A stretch of DNA of 53,336 nucleotides from NCBI GenBank assembly GCA_002690915.1, contig NZGF01000084.1, forward strand, positions 6,532 through 59,867, read 5' to 3'. Below the pieces are notes generated by a model. It did no database searches. It saw only the letters and a list, made by a program, of their open reading frames with translations, and was not told where the DNA came from. Position 1 is the stretch's first letter. Each line of letters opens with the position of its first letter. Origin of the DNA: Crocinitomicaceae bacterium. Lineage in GTDB: Bacteria > Bacteroidota > Bacteroidia > Flavobacteriales_D > Sanyastnellaceae. This document shows positions 4,259-22,981 of the stretch, in pieces. Made by a program: the position numbers and the translations under genes.

Positions 4259-5548
4259 ATGAACAGAAAATGGAATTTTCTGCTGCTTTCCGCATTGGTG
4301 GCAGCAACCCTCGTCGTTGGTGTTGATTACGACACGATTCAGTCTCAAAGCGCTACTTACGACTCCGGTGACATAGCCTGGATGGTTGTTGCAAGCGCAT
4401 TCGTCCTGCTGATGACGCCCGGTCTCGCCTTCTTTTACGGCGGTATGGTGAATAAAAAAAATGTCATATCCACTATGCTCCAGAGTTTTGTTGCCTTAGG
4501 GGTAATTAGTGTGGTCTGGGTCGTCGTAGGTTTCAGCCTTTGCTTTGGGAATTCTATCGGTGGCATCATCGGCGATCCGCGAACCTACCTCGCCTTTCGA
4601 GGTGTAGGCCTTGTCCCCAACGGGGATTTTGCGGATACCATTCCCTTCTTGCTCTTCGCGCTCTTCCAACTAAAGTTCGCCATCATCACACCCGCTTTGA
4701 TCACAGGGAGTTTCGCGGGCCGCATTCGATTCCGCGCCTACATCTTGTTCATGGTACTCTTCAGCTTAATCATTTACCCACCTTTAGCGCACATGACCTG
4801 GCACCCAGACGGACTGCTTCGCAACTGGGGCGTCTTGGATTTTGCTGGTGGAACGGTGGTACACATGTCAGCAGGTTTCGCGGCATTGGCGGGCGCATTG
4901 TTTTTGGGCAAACGCAATGAGGTGGACGACCAACCTGCCAACATTCCGTTTGTCATTCTCGGTACTGGGTTGCTCTGGTTTGGGTGGTTTGGATTCAACG
5001 CAGGTTCTGCACTTGGCGCCAATGCCGACGCCGTAAAGGCCTTTGCCAACACCAATTTGGCAAGTGCAACGGCGATGATCACCTGGGTATTTTACGACCG
5101 CTTCCAGAACCGGAAAATGTCCGCCCTTGGTGCCTGTATCGGAGCCATTGTGGGGCTCGTCGCCATCACTCCAGCTGCAGGATTCGTGTCCATTTCCCAC
5201 AGCATTTTCATCGGCTTCCTCGCATCTCTGATCAGCAATTGGGCCATTCGGTTCCAATCTCGTTTTGACATTGACGACACATTGGACGTATTCGCGAGCC
5301 ATGGCATCGGTGGCTTGGTGGGTATGATACTTACCGGTGTTTTTGCCGAAGAAGTGGGATTGATTCACGGCGATGCGACCATCTTCGTTCGTCACATCAT
5401 TGCCTTGACCGGGGTCGTGGTGGGTGTCTTCGCCCTTAGCTACGCGATCTACGTTGCTGTCAACCAAATCATTCCGATGCGGGTGCGCACCGATCAAGAG
5501 CAGCGTGGTTTGGACTATTCACAGCACGGTGAAAGAGTAAACTCGTGA
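4259..5548 (+). CDS. amt: Ammonium transporter (Amt/AmtB family)
   Basis: A 429-residue integral membrane protein that moves ammonium/ammonia across the inner membrane. It starts with a cleavable-looking hydrophobic leader, then the Amt hallmarks GDIAWMVVASAFVLLMTPG and AFFYGGMVNKKN. The pore signature DFAGGTVVHMSAG carries the first pore histidine and the later FASHGIGG segment the second. About eleven hydrophobic segments and the length fit the family. No glnK (PII) gene accompanies it, although the pair is usually linked; the next gene is a secreted protein starting 44 nt downstream. The ATG at 4259 lies just after a T-rich and A-rich stretch. Family assignment is very safe; substrate follows from family knowledge. 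Confidence 0.95.
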   Translation: MNRKWNFLLLSALVAATLVVGVDYDTIQSQSATYDSGDIAWMVVASAFVLLMTPGLAFFYGGMVNKKNVISTMLQSFVALGVISVVWVVVGFSLCFGNSIGGIIGDPRTYLAFRGVGLVPNGDFADTIPFLLFALFQLKFAIITPALITGSFAGRIRFRAYILFMVLFSLIIYPPLAHMTWHPDGLLRNWGVLDFAGGTVVHMSAGFAALAGALFLGKRNEVDDQPANIPFVILGTGLLWFGWFGFNAGSALGANADAVKAFANTNLASATAMITWVFYDRFQNRKMSALGACIGAIVGLVAITPAAGFVSISHSIFIGFLASLISNWAIRFQSRFDIDDTLDVFASHGIGGLVGMILTGVFAEEVGLIHGDATIFVRHIIALTGVVVGVFALSYAIYVAVNQIIPMRVRTDQEQRGLDYSQHGERVNS

Positions 5549-5592
5549 TTGGCATATCGAATTTGGACTATCTTCACCTCACACCGCCAAAG

Positions 5593-8400
5593 ATGAACTT
5601 GAATCCTGCATCCACGTTCTGGCTGGCTTTTGCCACCCTATTGCTATCAACGGCTCACGCCCAATCTCCAATCTCATATGGGTACACAGGCGACGTAGAG
5701 CTCTACGTTGTTCCCAGCTGCGTTTCGCAATTGGAAATTGAGCTAAAAGGCGCCTCAGGTGGTGGGTCGAACGGAGGCAATGGTTCGACCATAACCGGCA
5801 TCATTGACGTTGTGGAAGGGGAAATTCTGGAAATCCGCGTGGGCGGAGAAGGCGGCTGTCCTTCTGCTGGCTACAACGGAGGGGGCGAAGGCGGCAATGC
5901 CGGAGGAGCGAACAGTGGCTGCGGCGGAGGCGGTGCATCGGACATCCGAATCGGAGGTTCTGCTCTGGCTGACCGGGTTCTTGTCGCGGCAGGCGGTGGC
6001 GGAATGGGCGGTGGAAACACCGATGCAGATGCAGGTGATGCCGGCTGCAATGACGGAGGTGAAGGGGATAGTCCCTTTGGAGAAGGCGGTAACGGAGCCA
6101 CACAAAATTCTGGCGGCGCTGGCGGTCCACCTTGGATTGGATCGGGAAATGACGGTGATGGAGGCGGACTCGGCTTTGGAGGCGACGGCGCCATAGACCC
6201 GTGTTATGGCGTAGGTCCAGGCGGTGGAGGTGGCGGCGGCTATTACGGTGGAGGTGGCGGTGGCAGTGACTGCTTCGCTTCTGGAACGCTGGGCGGTGGT
6301 GGCGGCGGTGGCGGATCGAGCTTAACACCGTCAGAATTCTTGTGCGTGGGCGGCAACGTTTCTGGTCAGGGCTCCATTGTGATAACCCCAATTGGCGGAG
6401 TAGGCTTGGTGGTCGAACCAACAGCTCCTCAAACCTGTGAAGGCGACTCGCTCTTGTTGACCCTTTCAGGTGCAGATGATTACAACTGGCTCGAAGCCGA
6501 CGGCCTCACGGTCATTGACGGAGCAAGCGTCCTCCTCAATCCGATTGAAACCACCGTGTACAGTGTCATTGCGTCGAACGAGGAATGCATCGACACTGTC
6601 GACGTAACGGTTACTGTCGTCCCCTATCCAGTCATCACCGTGGATCCCGAGTACATTACGACCTGCAACGAACCGGTATCGCTTTCGGCTACGGGCGCCT
6701 TCCAACTCCAGTGGCTGCCAAATGAAAGCCTCGTCGGTAATGGGTATGGTCCGTTTCAGACTGCGAATCCCACCGAGACCACAGTCTACACAGTGATTGG
6801 CACCAATTCTGGTTGCAGTACTGAAGCGACTGTGACGGTCGCTTACCAATTGGAAGTGGAAAGCACCGAATACTATTGCGAAGGAGGAAGCTACAACTTG
6901 CCCGATGGTTCTGAGGTAGACGAAGAGGGAACCTACATCGCAGAATACGTTTCCATCGAAGGCTGCGACAGCATCGTTACAGTCAACCTCTTCGAACAGT
7001 CTACGTATGACTTCCAAATGCCGGTGCAGCTATGCGCTGGAGAGGCTTATACATTGCCAGACGGAACGGTCATCAATGAACCGGGGACGTTTCCAGTGGT
7101 GCTCGAAACTACGCTTGCACAGTGCGACAGTGCCATCACCACAGTCGTATCGATGCTTCAACCATTTGAAACCCAAAACACGCTCGCACTATGCGAAGGA
7201 GAACCTGTAGTCTTGGGCGATGGAACGGTAGTTACGGAGGAAGGCGTGTACACGGTCGTTTTGGCATCCGAGACCAATGGGTGTGACAGCACGGTGACGT
7301 CAAACGTAATTTTCCAACCCAATTATGATACGAACGTAACGTTGGATGCGTGTGATGATGGTTCGTACCTGCTCCCCGACGGGACGGCACCTACCTCTTC
7401 TGGAGTGTTCAGCTTTGACCTGCAAACCACCCTCGGCTGTGACAGCAGCGTGACCATCGACCTTACACTCAATCCGGCGTATGACATCGCCTACAACGCT
7501 TCCATTTGCGCGGGCGAAATCTACACGATGCCCGACGGCGCAGCCATTTCCACCGCCGGCCCTTACAACGCAGTACTGGAAACAAGTGCAGGGTGCGATA
7601 GCAGCATCACCGTCCAACTCACAGTCCATCCGCTTCCCGAACCTTCCAGCAGTGCAGAAGCCAGTTATTGCCTCTATGATGGAAACATTGAACTGAACCC
7701 AACTCCCACCGGCGGAACTCTTGCCGGGGACCTGCTTAACGGAAACACCCTGCAACACGAAGGCGCTGATCCCGGAACTTACGAAGTGAGCTATACGATT
7801 ACAGATGGCAACGGGTGCATGAACATGGACCTGATTGAATACGTACTGGCAACGCCCATTGAACCTACGTTTGATTTTAATATGATTTGCAATGAACTCG
7901 AACTCATCAGTACGGTCGATGACCCCGATGAAGCTTTCGGTTACGAGTGGTACCTCGCAAATGAATTGGTGGCCATATTTCCCAATCCGACGTATTTCTT
8001 CGATCAAACAGGCAGCTTTGAAATGGGGCTCTCTGTGACCGATCCATACGGCTGCATCTATGAAGCGGCTCAGGAAGTATACCTGCAAAACGCTTTGAAC
8101 TTAGACGGGTTCTTTGTTCCTAATGTTTTCACACCCAACGGAGACAACTACAACGATGCATTTCTGATTCCATCCGCGGTGAGCGCATGTTTGAATTACA
8201 ACGTAGACATCTTCAATCGATGGGGTCAATTGATCTACACCATGACACCATTGAAAGCAGCTTTTACTGGCAAAGATGAAGCAGGTAAAACGTTGCCTGA
8301 GGGCGTGTACTACTACACCATGGAAATCCTTGAATATCCTTGCGATGGAACGCCCGAACTGCAACCTTTCTGCAGCGGAACCATCTCCTTATTCCGTTAA
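5593..8400 (+). CDS. Glycine-rich secreted protein with T9SS type B C-terminal domain
   Basis: A 935-residue secreted protein. The ATG at 5593 gives a clean signal peptide (ending STAHAQ); an in-frame GTG at 5545 overlaps the amt stop and adds a non-signal extension, so it is rejected. After the leader comes a glycine-rich domain (about residues 30-265, with many GGGG runs) resembling the glycine-rich domain of ALK/LTK receptors and related bacterial surface proteins. Then come Ig-like segments and five Cys repeats of about 48 residues (about 425-680) of the form C.G..Y.LPDG....G.Y.....GCDS..TV. The last roughly 100 residues contain PNVFTPNGDNYND, FNRWGQLIY and LPEGVYYYTMEI, the gliding-motility-associated C-terminal (type B) sorting domain. 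It is probably a cell-surface adhesin; no catalytic motif is seen. The Gly-rich stretch makes the coding strand strongly G-rich. Confidence 0.9.
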   Translation: MNLNPASTFWLAFATLLLSTAHAQSPISYGYTGDVELYVVPSCVSQLEIELKGASGGGSNGGNGSTITGIIDVVEGEILEIRVGGEGGCPSAGYNGGGEGGNAGGANSGCGGGGASDIRIGGSALADRVLVAAGGGGMGGGNTDADAGDAGCNDGGEGDSPFGEGGNGATQNSGGAGGPPWIGSGNDGDGGGLGFGGDGAIDPCYGVGPGGGGGGGYYGGGGGGSDCFASGTLGGGGGGGGSSLTPSEFLCVGGNVSGQGSIVITPIGGVGLVVEPTAPQTCEGDSLLLTLSGADDYNWLEADGLTVIDGASVLLNPIETTVYSVIASNEECIDTVDVTVTVVPYPVITVDPEYITTCNEPVSLSATGAFQLQWLPNESLVGNGYGPFQTANPTETTVYTVIGTNSGCSTEATVTVAYQLEVESTEYYCEGGSYNLPDGSEVDEEGTYIAEYVSIEGCDSIVTVNLFEQSTYDFQMPVQLCAGEAYTLPDGTVINEPGTFPVVLETTLAQCDSAITTVVSMLQPFETQNTLALCEGEPVVLGDGTVVTEEGVYTVVLASETNGCDSTVTSNVIFQPNYDTNVTLDACDDGSYLLPDGTAPTSSGVFSFDLQTTLGCDSSVTIDLTLNPAYDIAYNASICAGEIYTMPDGAAISTAGPYNAVLETSAGCDSSITVQLTVHPLPEPSSSAEASYCLYDGNIELNPTPTGGTLAGDLLNGNTLQHEGADPGTYEVSYTITDGNGCMNMDLIEYVLATPIEPTFDFNMICNELELISTVDDPDEAFGYEWYLANELVAIFPNPTYFFDQTGSFEMGLSVTDPYGCIYEAAQEVYLQNALNLDGFFVPNVFTPNGDNYNDAFLIPSAVSACLNYNVDIFNRWGQLIYTMTPLKAAFTGKDEAGKTLPEGVYYYTMEILEYPCDGTPELQPFCSGTISLFR

Positions 8401-12319: not shown

Positions 12320-13594
12320 TCACTCCGACTTATCTATCATCAAGCGACCGCAAATCAATGCGACGACGAGACCAATGCCCAGCCCCTTCAGCAAATCGAT
12401 GAATACAATGGCCAAGATGGTCACGACAAAAGGAATGAAATGCTTCATTCCGCTCGCGTAGATGCGTTTGAATGTTGAGGGCTTTGCCAACTTATAGCCT
12501 ACCACAAACAGCACCGCCGCAAGGCTACCAAGTGGAATGTAGGTGAGCAGTGTTGGAGCCAGCAGAAAAAACAAGAGCAGCCAAGCACCGTGCAAAATTG
12601 CGCTGAGCTTGGTAGCATTGCCTGTTTGGATGTTCGCAGATGAACGAACAATCACTTGGGTGATGGGCAACCCACCAATCAATCCACTTAAGGTATTTCC
12701 AACCCCTTGCGCCAACAATTCCCGGTTCGTTGGGGTCACGCGTTTTTCAGGATCTAATTTATCAGTTGCCTCAACGCAGAGGAGGGTTTCCAAGCTCGCG
12801 ACAACAGCAATCGTCACAGCCAAAATCCAAATTGCACCATCTCCAATGGCTGAAAAATCAGGGAACGTCAGGAGCGATCCCCATGCAGACGGATCAATGC
12901 CATTGGCCGTGTGACCTATGGGCACGTCGACCAATTGTTTCGTGGTCAATGCACCTTCCCCTCCCCGCGTTATCAAGTGCACTGCAACTCCGGCAAGCAC
13001 TGCGGTCAAGGATCCCGAAAGCACTTTAGTGAACTGCTGGGCCTTCATGAAAGAAGTCTCCCACAGGACCAAAATGGCAAGGCACACGAACGTCACAACT
13101 GTGGCCGTGGCCGATGCATAACTGATGTTCTCCCCTAGCAACAACAAAACGTCAAAAACCTTGTCTGCCTTCTCAGCCCCGTCAGCGCCAGCATAACCCA
13201 GTCCGTGCGGAATTTGCTTAATGAAGATGATGATTCCGATGGCGGCCAACATCCCAGAGATGACACTGGATGGAAAATACTTACCGACAACACCGGCGCG
13301 AACGATACCCAACACCAATTGAGCCAATCCACCGATTACTATCGCAAGGAGAAATGCCTCGAATCCTACCTCCTGGATGCCGTCATAAACGATGACTGCT
13401 AGGCCAGCAGCCGGTCCGGAAACACCCACATGACTCCCAGAAATGGGTGCAACAATAAGTCCGCCGATGATGCCGGCGATTAAGCCGGCGATGGGCTCCG
13501 CTCCCGAAGCCAATGCAATGCCTAGGCAGAGCGGCAATGCAACCAAAAAAACAACCAAGGATGCAGGAGCATCCTTTCCAATATGCGTAAACAT
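12320..13594 (-). CDS. SulP-family anion transporter lacking the STAS domain
   Basis: A 424-residue membrane protein with about 12 hydrophobic segments. SulP hallmarks are ALPLCLGIALASGAEPIAGL near the N-terminus, GSHVGVSGPAAG, and the later ELLAQGVGNTLSGLIGGLP. The family exchanges or imports inorganic anions (bicarbonate, sulfate). The protein stops right after the last membrane helix (RLMIDKSE), so the cytoplasmic STAS domain normally present is absent. No carbonic anhydrase gene is next to it. The ATG at 13594 follows a possible box TAATTTTC. Substrate is unresolved; bicarbonate is a reasonable guess for a marine bacterium. Confidence 0.9.
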   Translation of the reverse strand: MFTHIGKDAPASLVVFLVALPLCLGIALASGAEPIAGLIAGIIGGLIVAPISGSHVGVSGPAAGLAVIVYDGIQEVGFEAFLLAIVIGGLAQLVLGIVRAGVVGKYFPSSVISGMLAAIGIIIFIKQIPHGLGYAGADGAEKADKVFDVLLLLGENISYASATATVVTFVCLAILVLWETSFMKAQQFTKVLSGSLTAVLAGVAVHLITRGGEGALTTKQLVDVPIGHTANGIDPSAWGSLLTFPDFSAIGDGAIWILAVTIAVVASLETLLCVEATDKLDPEKRVTPTNRELLAQGVGNTLSGLIGGLPITQVIVRSSANIQTGNATKLSAILHGAWLLLFFLLAPTLLTYIPLGSLAAVLFVVGYKLAKPSTFKRIYASGMKHFIPFVVTILAIVFIDLLKGLGIGLVVALICGRLMIDKSE

Positions 13595-16604: not shown

Positions 16605-17642
16605 TCAATGCTCCTCTATCGTGCCTTCCACTGTTGCACCGAACATTGCTACGCCTCGGCTGTCCGGTGAGGACCACGCTCGAAACATACCTGAGCTGTT
16701 GCAGACCAGCGAGATGGCACCCGATGCATTTATAGCGACCACACCTCCATCGCCACCCAGCGCACCCATTTCAGAAAAAACTGCACTTCGGCATGCCTCG
16801 ACAAGCGTTTCGTTACCGTGCAGCATTCGGCCGTGAATATCTTGAGCAACTCCTGTCCGGATGAAATACTCCCCCCATCCCGTGGCAGACACAGCACAGG
16901 TCCGATTGTCTGCCCACGTTCCGGCACCTATGATTGGACTGTCTCCAATCCTACCGTGTTTTTTGTAAGTCATGCCACCTGTCGAAGTCCCCGCTGCTAG
17001 ATTGCCATGGCTGTCCAATGCCACGCACCCCACGGTTCCTCGTTTATCCGCGAGCGCATCCTTCATTGTCGCTTTTCGTTTTGCCCGCAAATAGCGGCCA
17101 TGTGCTTTTTGCGTGAAAAACCAGTCATCGGATGCAGGCTCGTGCCCCATGGCAGCTGCAAATTCACCGGCACCGCGCCCACTGAAAAATACGTGATCGC
17201 TAGAGTCCATAACCGAGCGGGCCACTGAGATGGGATGGCGAAAACCGCGAATCCCTGTCACAGCTCCGCAGTTCCGCGTAAGCCCATCTGCAATTGACGC
17301 ATCGAGCTCTTGGATTCCATCGGCCGTGAAAACAGCCCCACGTCCAGCATTAAACAACGAATCATCTTCCAGCAGCCGAATCACAGCTTCGACAGCTCTT
17401 ACACTCGAACTTCCCTCCAAAAGCATGCTCTCCCCTTGTGCGAGTGCTGCAGACAACGAAGCGCTGTACGCTGCCTGTTGCTCCTCCGATAAATCCTCTT
17501 CTCCAAAATGACCAGCGCCACCGTGAATAGCGATGGCCCAAGCTCGCGGTGCTCCAGAAGCTTCCTCAGTTCCCTGCGGACCGCATCCGATTGCCATGGC
17601 TAAGAGCACCCCACCCCACATTCCTATCGTTGTTCGCTCCAT
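16605..17642 (-). CDS. iaaA: Isoaspartyl peptidase / plant-type asparaginase, lipoprotein
   Basis: A 345-residue N-terminal-nucleophile hydrolase that cleaves beta-aspartyl dipeptides and asparagine. IHGGAGHFG (about 39-47) and the segment DSLFNAGRGAVFTADG are hallmarks. The autocleavage site is G202/T203 in KRGTVGCVALDSHGN, followed by AAGTSTGGMTYKKHGRIGDSP, and T203 becomes the catalytic N-terminal Thr. Residue C20 in AMAIGC is a lipobox, so it is exported and lipid-anchored, as in several Bacteroidota homologues. It lies 8 nt after the cysteine dioxygenase-methyltransferase gene on the same strand, so the two are probably one transcript. Confidence 0.93.
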   Translation of the reverse strand: MERTTIGMWGGVLLAMAIGCGPQGTEEASGAPRAWAIAIHGGAGHFGEEDLSEEQQAAYSASLSAALAQGESMLLEGSSSVRAVEAVIRLLEDDSLFNAGRGAVFTADGIQELDASIADGLTRNCGAVTGIRGFRHPISVARSVMDSSDHVFFSGRGAGEFAAAMGHEPASDDWFFTQKAHGRYLRAKRKATMKDALADKRGTVGCVALDSHGNLAAGTSTGGMTYKKHGRIGDSPIIGAGTWADNRTCAVSATGWGEYFIRTGVAQDIHGRMLHGNETLVEACRSAVFSEMGALGGDGGVVAINASGAISLVCNSSGMFRAWSSPDSRGVAMFGATVEGTIEEH

Positions 17643-17650
17643 GATTCTTT

Positions 17651-19054
17651 TTATTCAACTGGCTTCGTTCCCGACACAAATAATTTGCCGTTGTGGGATT
17701 CTACCCCTACGGCTTGGTCGTAGCCAATGGTTGTCACTTGAATCTCCACAAATCCGGCCTCTTCCATCAGTGAACGAAGGCGAGATGAAGAACAGTAGTG
17801 TAAAAAAGCCACGTGCTCTCCCCGTGTCCTTCGGTAAAAAACATCTCCTTCTTCATACCCTTGCTGGCCCAGCCTTTGATCATGAAATTGCTGAACAGCC
17901 TCGGGACCCCACTCGTATTCATCTTCTGCATCAAACGCATCAACGTAAAAAACCCCTCCCGGATTGAGCATTTCGAAGGAAGCTTTAATGATGTTTCTCC
18001 GCGTTTTACGGTTTGGCAAATGGCCAAATGCATAGAGCAGCGTCACAGCATCAAACGATTCCGAGCGGATGAATTCCTGCGGATGACGCAACGATCCCAA
18101 ATGAACTTGGACATCACGCGCTGCCGCTTGAGCGGCCATCTCTTCGCACATATCCACTCCTTCCATGGTGTATTCTAGTCCCGATTCCATCCGGATGTCA
18201 ATGGCCCTTCTACCGGTTCCACACGCCAAGTGCATGACGCGCTCCACGGGCCGTGAATCGGAAAGGGTCCGGAGGCCCATAGCGACTAGGCCATCGATGG
18301 CGGCAGTGTAGTGACGACGTTTTTGGATTTGCGCATCGAGGGCATCGTATTGGCTTGCCTGTTCGGCGAAATATCCCTCAATCATTCGTTCAATGGTCTC
18401 CGCATCCGGTTTGGGTACGACGTTGCACTGAACATGAGATGCTTCCGGTAGCGGCTCGAAGCGAAAGGCATGTTCCTTGATTCTGCGGTAATTCGACACC
18501 GGCAGGTGAATCGAAGCTGTAGGTGCGCTTTGGTTGCACGTGAAGGCGGTTCCAGATTTCAGATCGTACAAAACCAGGCCATCTAAATCCTCCAGTGCCG
18601 GGTGGTAAAAGTGCAAAGTCACCAGGGCCTCTTGATCGCTCCCATTTCTGATTTTGTGAATCGTACCGTCCGGCTCAGGCACGATGCCTTTGGGGTGGGC
18701 ACGCAGAACATCCTTCTGCCTTAACACGCCATCATTGATTTGATAGGTCACGTTTTCGAGCACACCTTGAAGGCACACGACTGTGCCCCAAAACCCTTCG
18801 TGGTGGTGCACCGCACTCTCCACACCAGGTGGCCAATGGAGCAATACAACTTCAAACGGATCGAGGCACACGATATTTCGCGCGTAGTCGTCATCAGAGG
18901 AAACCTTTGGGACATGGTCAGCCCAATCGCAAAGGGTCCAGTCGATGGATTCGACCCAACGGCACAACACTTCGTACGTCAGTGGTTGAAGTGCATCATC
19001 GGCAAGGCTTGCGCACAAAGCCTCCAGTTCAAATGATTTTTGAGATGCCGACAT
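17651..19054 (-). CDS. Cysteine dioxygenase-like cupin fused to a SAM methyltransferase
   Basis: A 467-residue cytoplasmic two-domain protein. Residues about 20-190 match type I cysteine dioxygenase: iron ligands H83 and H85 in SAVHHHEGFWG, third ligand H133 in TIHKIRN, and Y150 in LHFYHPA, spaced exactly like H140/Y157 of mammalian CDO. G90 replaces the cross-link cysteine (C93), as in bacterial CDOs. Residues about 215-465 are a class I SAM-dependent methyltransferase with motif I VMHLACGTG (273-281), the acidic residue in GVDMCEEM, and a post-motif LNPGGVFYVDAFDAED. The cupin should oxidise a thiol to a sulfinate and the second domain should methylate something; the actual substrates and any coupling are unknown. 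The ATG at 19054 is well supported by the sequence start. Confidence 0.88.
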   Translation of the reverse strand: MSASQKSFELEALCASLADDALQPLTYEVLCRWVESIDWTLCDWADHVPKVSSDDDYARNIVCLDPFEVVLLHWPPGVESAVHHHEGFWGTVVCLQGVLENVTYQINDGVLRQKDVLRAHPKGIVPEPDGTIHKIRNGSDQEALVTLHFYHPALEDLDGLVLYDLKSGTAFTCNQSAPTASIHLPVSNYRRIKEHAFRFEPLPEASHVQCNVVPKPDAETIERMIEGYFAEQASQYDALDAQIQKRRHYTAAIDGLVAMGLRTLSDSRPVERVMHLACGTGRRAIDIRMESGLEYTMEGVDMCEEMAAQAAARDVQVHLGSLRHPQEFIRSESFDAVTLLYAFGHLPNRKTRRNIIKASFEMLNPGGVFYVDAFDAEDEYEWGPEAVQQFHDQRLGQQGYEEGDVFYRRTRGEHVAFLHYCSSSRLRSLMEEAGFVEIQVTTIGYDQAVGVESHNGKLFVSGTKPVE

Positions 19055-19125: not shown

Positions 19126-20655
19126 ATGTTGATTTGGAAGTTAAATGTTTCGTGCTTGATCCTTGCCTTCGGAGCTATGGGATTATTTCCGATGTCGACT
19201 TCAGCCCAATCGGACTGCGGATGGAACCCGGATTTTGAGCAGGATTATGCAATTGGAATAACCGATGTCCTTGCTATTCTTGGTGTCTTTGGGGCCGTTG
19301 ACAACGACCAAGACGGCCTCTGGGACGTCAACGATTTATGCGAAGACATGGAAGCATGCAACTACAATGCGAATCCCACGGAAGCATGCCTCTATGAAGA
19401 TGCGCTTGGGGTATGCGGCGGCGGCAGCATCCTTCCAGAATTGTTAATTGGTTCGTGGCAGTTCTCAACGGTTGAAGGTGCGGTTTCGGTTGGACCGGAC
19501 CCGTACAGCAATGCCTGGTACAGCAGCCCCGCCAATGGGCTTCAAAATGCACAGTACGACGATGTCTACACCTTTCATCCAAATGGATCGTTGACCACCG
19601 AGTACAACGGATCTATTATAGACGCCTTCTCGGAGTACGCCGAGCTCGTTTACGATTGCTCCTCTCCTGCCGCCCAATTCTATCCAAGCGAGGGCACCTC
19701 AGGAGAGGATGCTATTGAATTGCTCTCCAGTGAAGGAGTATGCGAATGCCCTTTCATTGGAACAAACGATGCGGGGTTGGTGTACGACATTGTGACGTTG
19801 AACGAAACGACCCTGGTATTGCATGCCCAAGGGGACGATGCCGACTGCAATGCAGCCGGATTGTACTTCACATTCACTTTCAACCGCATCACTGACGATA
19901 CAGGAGATACTGAGGACGGAGAGGGATATCCCGCAGCTGATACTTACGAAGCCATGACGCTCGTCTGGTCAGATGAATTTGACGGAACCAGTTTGAACTT
20001 GGATAATTGGACTTACGACTTAGGGGCATCGGGATGGGGAAACAACGAGTGGCAGAATTACACCAACAGCACGCAAAACAGTTCAGTTGCAGACGGCTAC
20101 TTGACCATCACCGCTCGCCAAGAAGGTTCGAGTTACACCTCGGCCCGATTGAAATCGCAAGGCCTCCAATCTTTCCAATACGGCCGCATGGACATCCGTG
20201 CAAAATTACCCGAAGGCCAAGGCATCTGGCCAGCAATATGGATGCTCGGAGACAATTTTACCAGCACCGGGTGGCCGGCTTGTGGAGAAATTGACATCAT
20301 GGAAATGATCGGACACCAGCCATCCACGGCCCACGGAACGGCCCACTGGGGTAGCAGTTGGAATTTCCACCAGTACACCGGCTCTAGCATCACCCTGCCG
20401 AACGGAGAAAAATTCAGTGAAGCCTTTCACCTGTTCTCGGTCATTTGGGAAGAAAATCAAATCACGTGGTTGATGGACGATCAGGCGTATTTCTCCATTG
20501 ACAGCGCGCAAATGAACGGCCAGCCCTACCCTTTTAACGCGCAGTTTTTCTTCATTATGAACATTGCAGTGGGTGGCAATTGGCCTGGCTATCCTGATGC
20601 CACGACTGAATTCCCACAGCATATGGTCGTGGACTGCATTCGCGTGTTTCAATAA
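19126..20655 (+). CDS. Secreted GH16 beta-glucanase (laminarinase-like)
   Basis: A 509-residue secreted enzyme. After the signal peptide (ending STSAQ) is a dockerin-like segment (ITDVLAILGVFGAVDNDQDG) and a Cys module (ACNYNANPTEACLYEDALG) common in marine Bacteroidota secreted proteins. A middle domain (about 105-265) is unassigned. The GH16 domain (about 285-509) carries the catalytic ExDxxE as E388-I-D390-IM-E393, plus LVWSDEFDG, RMDIRAKLPEGQGIWPAIWM and WEENQITWLMDD. It should cleave beta-1,3- or mixed-linkage glucans such as laminarin. No C-terminal T9SS domain is visible; the protein ends with the GH16 fold. It is followed 28 nt later by the GH92 gene. Confidence 0.93.
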   Translation: MLIWKLNVSCLILAFGAMGLFPMSTSAQSDCGWNPDFEQDYAIGITDVLAILGVFGAVDNDQDGLWDVNDLCEDMEACNYNANPTEACLYEDALGVCGGGSILPELLIGSWQFSTVEGAVSVGPDPYSNAWYSSPANGLQNAQYDDVYTFHPNGSLTTEYNGSIIDAFSEYAELVYDCSSPAAQFYPSEGTSGEDAIELLSSEGVCECPFIGTNDAGLVYDIVTLNETTLVLHAQGDDADCNAAGLYFTFTFNRITDDTGDTEDGEGYPAADTYEAMTLVWSDEFDGTSLNLDNWTYDLGASGWGNNEWQNYTNSTQNSSVADGYLTITARQEGSSYTSARLKSQGLQSFQYGRMDIRAKLPEGQGIWPAIWMLGDNFTSTGWPACGEIDIMEMIGHQPSTAHGTAHWGSSWNFHQYTGSSITLPNGEKFSEAFHLFSVIWEENQITWLMDDQAYFSIDSAQMNGQPYPFNAQFFFIMNIAVGGNWPGYPDATTEFPQHMVVDCIRVFQ

Positions 20656-20671
20656 ACAGTCACGCATCGCC

Positions 20672-20679
20672 TAGCTTTG
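20672..20679 (+). promoter_or_regulatory. -7 box (TAGCTTTG) 4 nt before the GH92 start
   Basis: TAGCTTTG matches the Bacteroidota -7 consensus TAnnTTTG exactly and sits 4 nt before the ATG at 20684. Transcription from it would start at or next to the start codon, giving a leaderless mRNA for the GH92 gene separate from the upstream GH16 transcript. No clear -33 TTG at the usual 17-23 nt spacing was found. Confidence 0.5.
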
Positions 20680-20683
20680 GTGC

Positions 20684-22981
20684 ATGCGCAATTTGTCCGT
20701 TCTAATCATCCCCTGCTTCGCATGGATATGCGGGTGCTCCGAACCCAGGTCCATTGAACAAGAACCCGATCAAAAACTCACCCAATGGGTGAATCCCATG
20801 ATCGGTACCACCCGAATGGGCCACACGTACCCCGGTGCGACGGTTCCATACGGAATGGTGCAAGTCTCGCCACAATCCCACTATGAGCCATTCCTGCAGC
20901 CCAATGGTGTCTACAACCCGGATACGTACAAGTACTGTGCAGGCTATCAATACGAAGATTCCACCATTCTGGGGTTTGTCCACACCAGCTTCAGCGGAAC
21001 CGGTCACAGCGATTTAGGAGACTTGTTGGTGATGCCAACCGTAGGGAGGCCCGATTTAAGTTCCGACGAAAAAGGAGGTCCGCAATTCGGCAGTCCATTC
21101 CAACATGCACGAGAAACGACCGAAGCTGGATACTATGCCGTAGACCTGAATCGGTATGCGATTCGGGCTGAAGTTACCGCTACCGAGCGCGTCGGCGTAC
21201 ACCGCTATACGTTTGAAGCAGGCGGCGACGCTAACCTCGCGTTGGACTTGGCCTACAACATCTACCACCATCCCGATAAAAACCTCTGGACTTTTGTCCG
21301 TGTGGAAAATGACTCCACGGTCGTGGGCTTCAGGCAAACCACCGGATGGGCGCGCACTCGAACCGTGCATTTTGCAATGCGGTTTGACCGTCCATTCGAG
21401 GAGTATGGCTACGAACGTGGCCAAGCCTTGACATACAATGGATTCTACCGTCGATTCAAGGAGTCGGTTAATTTTCCTGAAATGGCCGGAAAAGACCTTC
21501 GTGCGTGGTTCAGTTTTGGAGCATTTGAACCGGGGGAAACACTCGGTATGCGTATGGCGTTATCCGGGGTATCAACCGCCGGTGCTTTACGCAACTTGGA
21601 ATCTGAAGCGGAGCTACCCGGGTTCGATACCCACCGAGAAGCAGCTGGGAGAAAGTGGAATGATGCCTTGTCCATGGTCCGGATTGAGGCCCTCCAAGAA
21701 GAAGACTATACAACATTCTATACCGCCTTGTATCACAGCATGTTAAGCCCTGTCACCTACGAAGATGTTGATGGGCAGTACCGCGGTTTAGATCAGAACA
21801 TTTATACATCGAATGGCTTCACCAATCACACCGTTTTTTCCCTTTGGGACACATACCGTGCGCTGCATCCGTGGATTAACCTCACCCAACCTGAACGCGC
21901 CGCTGATCTCATCAACAGCATGCTCGCACATGCTGAGCAAAGCGTACACGGCATGCTTCCTATTTGGAGTCATTATGCCAATGAAAATTGGTGCATGATC
22001 GGTTACCATGCTGCCTCGGTTTTGGCTGATGCCGTCGCACACGGAATCGAAGGATGGAATCAACAGGTGGGACTCAAGGCTGCGGTTTCTACTGCGACTG
22101 TTCCTTATTTTGAAGGGTTGGAAGATTATATGAATTTGGGTTACGTTCCTGATGATAAAAACCACTCCGCCGTATCCAAAACCCTAGAGTACGCCTTCGA
22201 TGATTGGTGCATTGCGCAAATGGCTGAAGCCCTGGGAAAAGACGAGGTGGCGAAGACGTTCATGCGCCGATCGGAGGCGTACCGCAACGTCTGGGATCCC
22301 GCCACTCGTTTCATGCGGCCGCGACTGGCGGACGGTTCGTTTCGGAAGGCGTTCGACCCCATGGAAACCCACGGCCAAGGGTTCATCGAAGGCAATGCAT
22401 GGAATTACGGCTTGTACGTACCGCACGCTCCAGACTCTCTGATCGCATGGCATGGAGGACCTGCAGCATTCTCAGCTCACCTCGATTCACTGTTTACCAT
22501 GGAATTGGATGACGCATACTTTGCCCATACAGAAGACATCTCACGGGACGGCATCATCGGAAGCTACGTCCACGGGAACGAACCGGGCCACCACATTGCC
22601 TACCTCTACAACCAGGCTGGAGCTCCTGAGAAGACGCAGGAGCGCGTGAGGATGATTTGCGATGCGATGTATGGAGGAAGCGTCGATGGGCTTTGCGGCA
22701 ACGACGATGCCGGTCAAATGTCCGCTTGGTACCTGTTCTCAGCGTTAGGCTTCTATCCCGTCGCTCCAGGTTCAGGCTGGTATGAATTGGGAAGCCCCAA
22801 CCTACGCGCCGCCACCCTTCAAGTGGGCTACGGCAAGACCCTGCGCATTGAAACCATTGGCAATGCCAAGGACAAAACCCGCGTTCAATCCGTCACCTGG
22901 AATGGAAAAGCGATTCTCGATTGGCAAATCGCTGCCGCGGATCTTGTACAGGGCGGTACGTTGACCTTCACGTTCGAATAA
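20684..22981 (+). CDS. GH92 alpha-mannosidase, lipoprotein
   Basis: A 765-residue exo-acting mannosidase of family GH92 (Ca-dependent; commonly alpha-1,2 and other alpha-mannosidic linkages). N-terminal family signature WVNPMIGTTRMGHTYPGATV with VPYGMVQVSPQ, then GFVHTSFSGTGHSDLGDLLVMP. The catalytic domain has FSLWDTYRALHPW, LPIWSHYANENWCMIGYH, GFIEGNAWNYG, GNEPGHHIAYLYNQAG and DDAGQMSAWYLFSALGFYP. The leader ends in WICGC, an imperfect lipobox, so it is probably anchored. Residue counts fit the family. It probably works on mannose-containing glycans alongside the upstream GH16 enzyme. Confidence 0.95.
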   Translation: MRNLSVLIIPCFAWICGCSEPRSIEQEPDQKLTQWVNPMIGTTRMGHTYPGATVPYGMVQVSPQSHYEPFLQPNGVYNPDTYKYCAGYQYEDSTILGFVHTSFSGTGHSDLGDLLVMPTVGRPDLSSDEKGGPQFGSPFQHARETTEAGYYAVDLNRYAIRAEVTATERVGVHRYTFEAGGDANLALDLAYNIYHHPDKNLWTFVRVENDSTVVGFRQTTGWARTRTVHFAMRFDRPFEEYGYERGQALTYNGFYRRFKESVNFPEMAGKDLRAWFSFGAFEPGETLGMRMALSGVSTAGALRNLESEAELPGFDTHREAAGRKWNDALSMVRIEALQEEDYTTFYTALYHSMLSPVTYEDVDGQYRGLDQNIYTSNGFTNHTVFSLWDTYRALHPWINLTQPERAADLINSMLAHAEQSVHGMLPIWSHYANENWCMIGYHAASVLADAVAHGIEGWNQQVGLKAAVSTATVPYFEGLEDYMNLGYVPDDKNHSAVSKTLEYAFDDWCIAQMAEALGKDEVAKTFMRRSEAYRNVWDPATRFMRPRLADGSFRKAFDPMETHGQGFIEGNAWNYGLYVPHAPDSLIAWHGGPAAFSAHLDSLFTMELDDAYFAHTEDISRDGIIGSYVHGNEPGHHIAYLYNQAGAPEKTQERVRMICDAMYGGSVDGLCGNDDAGQMSAWYLFSALGFYPVAPGSGWYELGSPNLRAATLQVGYGKTLRIETIGNAKDKTRVQSVTWNGKAILDWQIAAADLVQGGTLTFTFE

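Follow-up and report, generated by a model that had tools for sequence, protein, structure and literature searches.

A gene joining a cysteine dioxygenase to a SAM methyltransferase in Flavobacteriales and its possible role in cysteine sulfinate methylation

Structure of the fusion gene

The window analysed here, a stretch of 53,336 nucleotides from a Crocinitomicaceae bacterium (assembly GCA_002690915.1, contig NZGF01000084.1), encodes a protein in which a cysteine dioxygenase (CDO) is joined to a class I S-adenosylmethionine (SAM) methyltransferase (Table 1). The open reading frame begins with an ATG at 19054 and ends with a stop codon at 17651-17653 of the minus strand; the plus-strand frame starting at 17651 is riddled with stops. 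A preliminary description of this DNA had placed the gene at the same coordinates, which hold, but gave no strand. The host assembly (2.39 Mb in 84 contigs, 84.9% complete) contains a single match to the fusion protein and no further match to the CDO_I model. A scan for promoters and terminators returned 6 promoter-like sites (2.4 expected) and 0 terminator-like sites (2.9 expected).

Table 1. Location of the fusion gene, its domains and motifs, the adjacent gene, and the second type of fusion. Positions are those of the window unless a locus is named.
Feature	Position	Strand	Details
CDO-methyltransferase fusion gene	17651..19054	minus	467 aa; open reading frame and near-full-length relatives
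CDO_I domain	18587..18889	minus	residues 56-156; Pfam CDO_I 35.2 bits, cut-off 23
Y57 and R59, YxRN motif	18878..18886	minus	invariant 31/31; aligns with YTRN of rat and YGRN of B. subtilis
Iron ligands H83 and H85	18800..18808	minus	residues 83-85; invariant 31/31; aligned to rat HDH
Third iron ligand H133	18656..18658	minus	invariant 31/31; aligns with the His in rat LHRVEN
T146, H148, Y150, SHY-type triad	18605..18619	minus	H148 and Y150 invariant 31/31; T146 in at least 90% of 31
Conserved inter-domain stretch	18407..18586	minus	residues 157-216
Class I SAM methyltransferase domain	17654..18406	minus	residues 217-467; Pfam Methyltransf_23, 25, 11, 12, 31
Motif I LACGTG	18212..18229	minus	residues 276-281; G279, T280, G281 invariant 31/31
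Asparaginase_2 gene	16605..17642	minus	345 aa; Pfam 320.2 bits; start 8 nt past the fusion stop
Type II CDO-methyltransferase fusion, genome G186	L112:7555-9210		551 aa; found via profile match to the CDO half
Type II CDO-methyltransferase fusion, genome G883	L116:8041-9672		543 aa

The five Pfam methyltransferase models all score over their cut-offs, within residues 262-436. We gathered 41 distinct near-full-length proteins, the window protein included, and aligned 31 of these (alignment A1); CDO_I and Methyltransf_25 match all 31 members at E ≤ 0.001. Residues A177, A180, F197, H207, P214, K215 and P216 of the inter-domain stretch are invariant in the 31 aligned fusions, and this block has a pLDDT of 81-95 in an AlphaFold2 model of the protein (mean pLDDT 90, pTM 0.85). 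An NCBIfam scan of the window protein yielded no model near its cut-off, and among the matches listed in a PDB sequence search each covers one half of the protein, with no solved full-length relative seen. The open reading frame, the Pfam domains and the conserved active sites bear out the earlier reading of a CDO-methyltransferase fusion: judged from sequence, the fusion is genuine, a single gene with two complete domains whose conserved active sites are intact. The protein is predicted to be a bifunctional and probably cytoplasmic enzyme.

Active site of the dioxygenase half

Seven residues of the dioxygenase half (Y57, R59, H83, H85, H133, H148 and Y150) are invariant in all 31 aligned fusions and align with rat and Bacillus subtilis CDO. 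The preliminary description had named four of them (H83, H85, H133 and Y150) correctly. P152 is likewise invariant (31/31) and aligned to rat CDO, and residue 84, between the first two iron ligands, is variable among the 31. We take H133 to correspond to position 140 of rat CDO and R59 to rat Arg60, the binder of the cysteine carboxylate; the other rat counterparts are presumably Tyr58, which serves the substrate together with Arg60, and His155, Tyr157 and Pro159. The CDO_I score, the three histidine ligands and the substrate-site residues place the domain, by sequence, among the Arg-type (type I) CDOs, and its substrate is probably L-cysteine. Such an active site strongly predicts conversion of cysteine to cysteine sulfinate.

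At two positions, W89 and E127, the fusion differs from the aligned rat enzyme, which has His and Ile. Mammalian CDO has an SHY motif and a Tyr157-Cys93 link, according to PMC13194613. G90 of the fusion aligns with rat position 93, and the preliminary description was right to place a glycine there, but its view that this is the rule in bacterial CDOs does not hold, because among the six decarboxylase-linked Bacteroidota CDOs (see below), the five whose sequences we read all have Cys at this position.

The best PDB sequence matches to the CDO half are structures of B. subtilis CDO (YubC; 3eqe, 4qm8), and the best Foldseek match is 4qm9, the Cys-bound form of this enzyme (TMt 0.83, rmsd 2.7, 24% identity). 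YubC shares its fold and its iron- and substrate-binding residues with the fusion, but is a stand-alone protein of about 170 aa with no methyltransferase.

The methyltransferase half

The motif I glycines and an acidic residue at the end of strand 2 (residue 301; D in at least 90% of the 31 sequences, E in some members of family f3) identify the C-terminal half as a class I SAM methyltransferase. Residues 276-281 and the Pfam matches thereby confirm the complete class I methyltransferase with motif I LACGTG of the preliminary description. Many Tyr, Arg and His residues of this half are invariant across the 31-member alignment.

Foldseek matches to the methyltransferase half are a mix of C- and N-methyltransferases and unnamed methyltransferases, with C-methyltransferases on top; among the methyltransferase matches listed, identity to characterised enzymes is 13-22%. 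The PDB sequence matches of the family profile include N-methyltransferases acting on phosphoethanolamine, aminosugars and glycine/sarcosine, as well as NmbA (9ri2). The 31 members have weak NCBIfam matches to several families, most commonly UbiE/MenG (17/31) and including glycine/sarcosine N-methyltransferase (7/31). Together with the lack of any NCBIfam model near its cut-off for the window protein, these matches assign the methyltransferase to no substrate-named subfamily. The nearest unfused methyltransferase relatives in the phylum sample (L108:7972-8685 and L111:8169-8873) lie in apparent polysaccharide clusters, with DegT-like aminotransferase and sulfotransferase-like genes, named by eye, alongside.

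Distribution and selection

The fusion was detected at E ≤ 1e-10 in 37 of 150 genomes of relatives (9 of 53 genera, own genome included). As the preliminary description had proposed, we looked for proteins with both domains: within the order Flavobacteriales, 44 of 399 genomes carry the fusion (9 of 70 genera in three families, again counting the own genome), and a profile search of the phylum uncovered a second fusion type, described below. In one of the 44 the protein is divided between two contig ends (G013). Three genomes of the own genus have no match, at 96% (G015), 87% (G006) and 64% completeness. A draw of 395 genomes from the phylum, which contains the own genome by construction, has the full fusion in that genome only, with two others matching in the methyltransferase half alone; a profile search of the same 395 matched 20 genomes, of which the own genome matches over the full fusion, 16 over the methyltransferase half and 3 over the CDO half. 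A collection-wide contig scan, which uses short peptides and detects close relatives only, returned 17 loci, 16 from Flavobacteriales and 1 labelled 'bacterium'; the search in depth covered Bacteroidota genomes. Plasmid records gave no fusion match at E ≤ 1e-5, which leaves plasmid-borne transfer without support.

Both halves are under purifying selection in the pairs compared. Among 26 coding sequences, the 15 pairs with dS < 1.2, none of which includes the window gene, have omega values that range from 0.04-0.14 in the CDO half to 0.03-0.17 in the methyltransferase half. One genome of the own genus (G019) carries the full fusion on one contig and a partial match, covering residues 383-467 at 95% identity to the window protein, on another (contigs C57 and C41); the second match may reflect a strain mixture or bin contamination.

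A second, differently built fusion

The type II fusions come from another Bacteroidota family. They share with the window-type (type I) fusions an N-terminal CDO and a C-terminal class I methyltransferase, but they are longer and the two domains are separated by a spacer of about 100 aa. In the G186 protein CDO_I matches at residues 51-157 (25.6 bits, cut-off 23) and the methyltransferase at about 340-435 (Pfam); the G883 protein is 53% identical to it over residues 11-549. In the order to which these two belong, 3 of 119 genomes have a match; that of the third, G827, is confined to the CDO half. With this unfused G827 protein the type II CDO shares 40% identity, compared with 24-29% for type I CDOs.

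A tree of nine CDO domains rejects a single clade of fusion CDOs (p-AU 0.010), with the reservation that its nine rows have long branches and that loss of the methyltransferase in the G827 lineage would look alike. The methyltransferase tree places the six fusion methyltransferases on one side of a branch (100/100) and is silent on the number of origins, because just two unfused rows are present in it. In the BLAST table, unfused methyltransferases match type I, not type II. Based on the CDO tree and the BLAST table, the CDO-methyltransferase fusion likely had two separate origins. CDO_I itself is uncommon in the phylum draw, with matches in 9 of 395 genomes (8 of them over the cut-off), and two of these nine genomes have CDO-methyltransferase fusions, one being the own genome, drawn by construction. 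After the G186 fusion gene comes a gene for a pyridine nucleotide-disulphide oxidoreductase, and ahead of it, on the opposite strand, lies a Sulf_transp gene; a second Sulf_transp gene was recognised there by eye.

Genes adjoining fused and unfused dioxygenases

In six of the nine genomes read (G235, G459, G178, G502, G200 and G038), an unfused CDO adjoins a cysteine-sulfinate-decarboxylase-like gene, in the same direction in four and divergently in two. Three of the decarboxylases were named by Pfam (PF00282), that of G038 by family search, that of G459 by eye and that of G200 through its 87% identity to that of G502. In G355, G428 and G827 no decarboxylase was seen, by eye, beside the unfused CDO. 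The linked decarboxylases of G200, G235, G178 and G038 are 57-87% identical to that of G502, for which the best PDB matches are 2jis and 6zek, both cysteine sulfinic acid decarboxylases, and GADL1 matches equally well. G038 belongs to the family of the window genome and has the pair without the fusion. A CDO fused to a cysteine sulfinate decarboxylase occurs in algae.

No decarboxylase was recognised beside the fusion in the neighbourhoods clustered. PF00282 proteins occur in 17 of 21 fusion carriers versus 7 of 15 non-carriers, and the four carriers without a match are 96-99% complete. From nine carriers we took one PF00282 protein apiece and compared it with the G502 decarboxylase; all nine lie elsewhere in their genomes, are 22-28% identical to it, and include no close relative of the CDO-linked decarboxylases. 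Those of G000, G014, G023 and G030 form one group, at 46-61% identity to that of G000. In the fusion, the methyltransferase seems to hold the place that the sulfinate decarboxylase has in relatives. As in the CDO-decarboxylase pairs, the CDO product would pass to a second, linked enzyme; in the pairs, however, this enzyme is an unfused pyridoxal phosphate (PLP) decarboxylase.

A neighbour of the fusion more widespread than the peptidase gene of the preliminary description is pdxH, a gene of PLP synthesis. Among 25 carriers searched, 24 have pdxH (TIGR00558) over the cut-off, once each, and G061 has in addition a weak partial match. In 16 of the 24, pdxH immediately follows the fusion in the same orientation and is the only pdxH over the cut-off (genera g9, g10, g12, g15 and f5/g25); four of these neighbours were examined with NCBIfam, and all scored over the cut-off. 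In the other eight (own genus, g3 and f3) pdxH lies apart from the fusion. In the own genome it is on a different contig, for which reason the preliminary description, although it had proposed mapping the neighbours, could not have seen the link. Two changes on a quick tree of the fusion suffice for the linkage pattern, which would fit an old link with two later losses. Where the link is absent, several genomes have a phosphatase-like gene upstream of pdxH and two opposed genes after it, and most g9 and g10 loci have the same phosphatase-like gene on the other side of the fusion (names by eye). With pdxH adjacent in many carriers, cysteine oxidation may be coupled to the supply or protection of PLP, or the product may be used by a PLP enzyme. 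In the three genomes of genus g12 that we read (L054, L055 and L056), the fusion and pdxH are followed, within a few genes, by a gene for the methionine-R-sulfoxide reductase MsrB; this gene was named by NCBIfam in L054 (6122-6625) and by clustering in the other two.

The preliminary description had instead drawn attention to the isoaspartyl peptidase gene next to the fusion as a possible source of substrate. The 8-nt distance is correct, but the gene (Asparaginase_2) is next downstream in only 4 of 7 own-genus genomes and in 0 of the other-genus loci clustered. Its N-terminus carries what looks by eye like a lipoprotein signal (AMAIGC), and the protein should therefore act outside the cytoplasm; it is probably an exported lipoprotein with no part in the function of the fusion. 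We ruled it out as a partner on both counts.

Proposed reaction and alternatives

We propose that the N-terminal Fe(II) CDO domain would bind L-cysteine and dioxygenate its thiol to L-cysteine sulfinate, which the C-terminal class I methyltransferase would methylate with SAM, so that methylation would replace the step that comes after CDO in relatives, decarboxylation to hypotaurine. The main reason for proposing cysteine sulfinate as the methyl acceptor is the position of the methyltransferase in the place of the decarboxylase. The preliminary description had suggested oxidation of a thiol followed by methylation, and this is the best-fitting reading, strengthened by conservation in three families, purifying selection in the pairs compared and the second fusion, with the product a prediction. 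The route from cysteine through cysteine sulfinate to a methylated cysteine sulfinate is plausible but tentative, and we hold the narrower statement that the methyltransferase acts on an oxidation product of cysteine with the same caution. Our first guess for the acceptor atom is the amine nitrogen, a choice that is itself rather doubtful; the product would be N-methyl-cysteinesulfinate, possibly multiply methylated.

Sulfinates are soft S-nucleophiles, and the methyltransferase could act instead on the sulfinate sulfur to give S-methylcysteine sulfone, from which a PLP lyase could release methanesulfinate and pyruvate. The pdxH linkage in 16 of 24 carriers would suit such a lyase, but none was recognised among the clustered neighbours read and the literature search gave nothing relevant to this chemistry, and we regard S-methylation as very improbable. 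Slightly less so is the reverse order, in which the methyltransferase would N-methylate cysteine and the CDO domain would oxidise N-methylcysteine. NmbA, found among both the sequence and the fold matches of the methyltransferase half, is a class I enzyme that methylates the cysteine nitrogen of bacillithiol, as described in PMC12719100; this leaves room for a reading in which a cysteine nitrogen is methylated. Matches to BshC, a family of bacillithiol genes, occur in 33 of 36 genomes and in 18 of 21 carriers, so most carriers may make the NmbA substrate. NmbA is, however, a stand-alone enzyme, and its similarity to the fusion methyltransferase is generic (28 bits to 9ri2), no better than that of other methyltransferases. 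In addition, PMC13194613 describes substrates of these dioxygenases as bound to iron via thiolate and amine (or carboxylate), so N-methylation ahead of oxidation should hinder it. The CDO domain might also accept another thiol, such as bacillithiol or one of its fragments, homocysteine, 3-mercaptopropionate or a Cys dipeptide. Outcomes of cupin dioxygenases do vary, an example being SbzM, a cupin reported in PMC6331615 to convert cysteine to a sulfonamide precursor. The departures from rat CDO at W89 and E127, near the active site, would fit a different substrate; against this, Y57, R59, H148, Y150 and P152 are kept as in rat and B. subtilis CDO. Bacillithiol, moreover, has no free cysteine carboxylate for Arg60 to bind. 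A thiol other than cysteine is improbable.

Another enzyme could decarboxylate cysteine sulfinate, leaving the methyltransferase to methylate hypotaurine or taurine. The PF00282 decarboxylases of some kind in 17 of 21 carriers leave room for this, as does the single group formed by four of them, but the nine carrier proteins compared fall far outside the 57-87% identity seen within the CDO-linked group, the four carriers without PF00282 are nearly complete genomes, and none was recognised beside the fusion. A taurine or N-methyltaurine route is the least probable of the alternatives, and a relative of cysteine sulfinate decarboxylase as its enzyme is unsupported. Finally, the two halves may be fused for common regulation and yet act on different substrates, two unrelated activities being carried on one polypeptide, for example removal of cysteine to protect PLP alongside a separate methylation. 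Cysteine can trap PLP as a thiazolidine, and the pdxH linkage fits this picture; two differently built fusions with the same domain order, and the invariant residues of the inter-domain stretch, argue for a closer connection, and we consider co-regulation by itself unlikely. Returning to methylation of cysteine sulfinate, the broader proposition that Bacteroidota fused CDO to a methyltransferase at least twice and thereby make methylated cysteine sulfinate, a metabolite and an activity that our literature search did not turn up, is possible though on balance doubtful.

Among the matches listed in a literature search of titles and abstracts, with few subscription journals covered, there was no CDO-methyltransferase fusion and no methylation of cysteine sulfinate. 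We found no characterised relative of the fusion; both halves belong to familiar families, and their combination predicts a step in bacterial sulfur metabolism of which we found no description. The preliminary description had drawn an analogy to OvoA. OvoA is a sulfoxide synthase with a C-terminal methyltransferase, and its oxygenase is not known to be a cupin CDO. It shares with the fusion the pairing of a non-haem iron oxygenase and a SAM methyltransferase in sulfur metabolism, and nothing beyond that: the Pfam scan of the window protein (CDO_I, general methyltransferase models, weak cupin and other matches) contains no OvoA-type domain. With two differently built fusions, one of them present in three families and frequently next to the sole full pdxH, the system is a good Rosetta-stone case. 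If the proposed reaction is true, methylation would join decarboxylation and transamination as a fate of cysteine sulfinate, with a connection to PLP synthesis in many marine Flavobacteriales, and a new methylated cysteine sulfinate product in marine bacteria would bear on organosulfur cycling, osmolytes and the cysteine/PLP balance.

Other genes in the window

Divergent from the fusion, on the plus strand at 19126-22981, lie a GH16-family gene, with an N-terminus that looks secreted by eye, and then a GH92-family gene (Pfam), which form a small polysaccharide-use pair. About 4 kb downstream of the fusion, a gene at 12320-13594 on the minus strand encodes a sulfate permease family protein (Pfam). 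A large protein encoded at 5545-8400 on the plus strand has a type IX secretion signal domain, CHU_C, and a match to the glycine-rich domain ALK_LTK_GRD.
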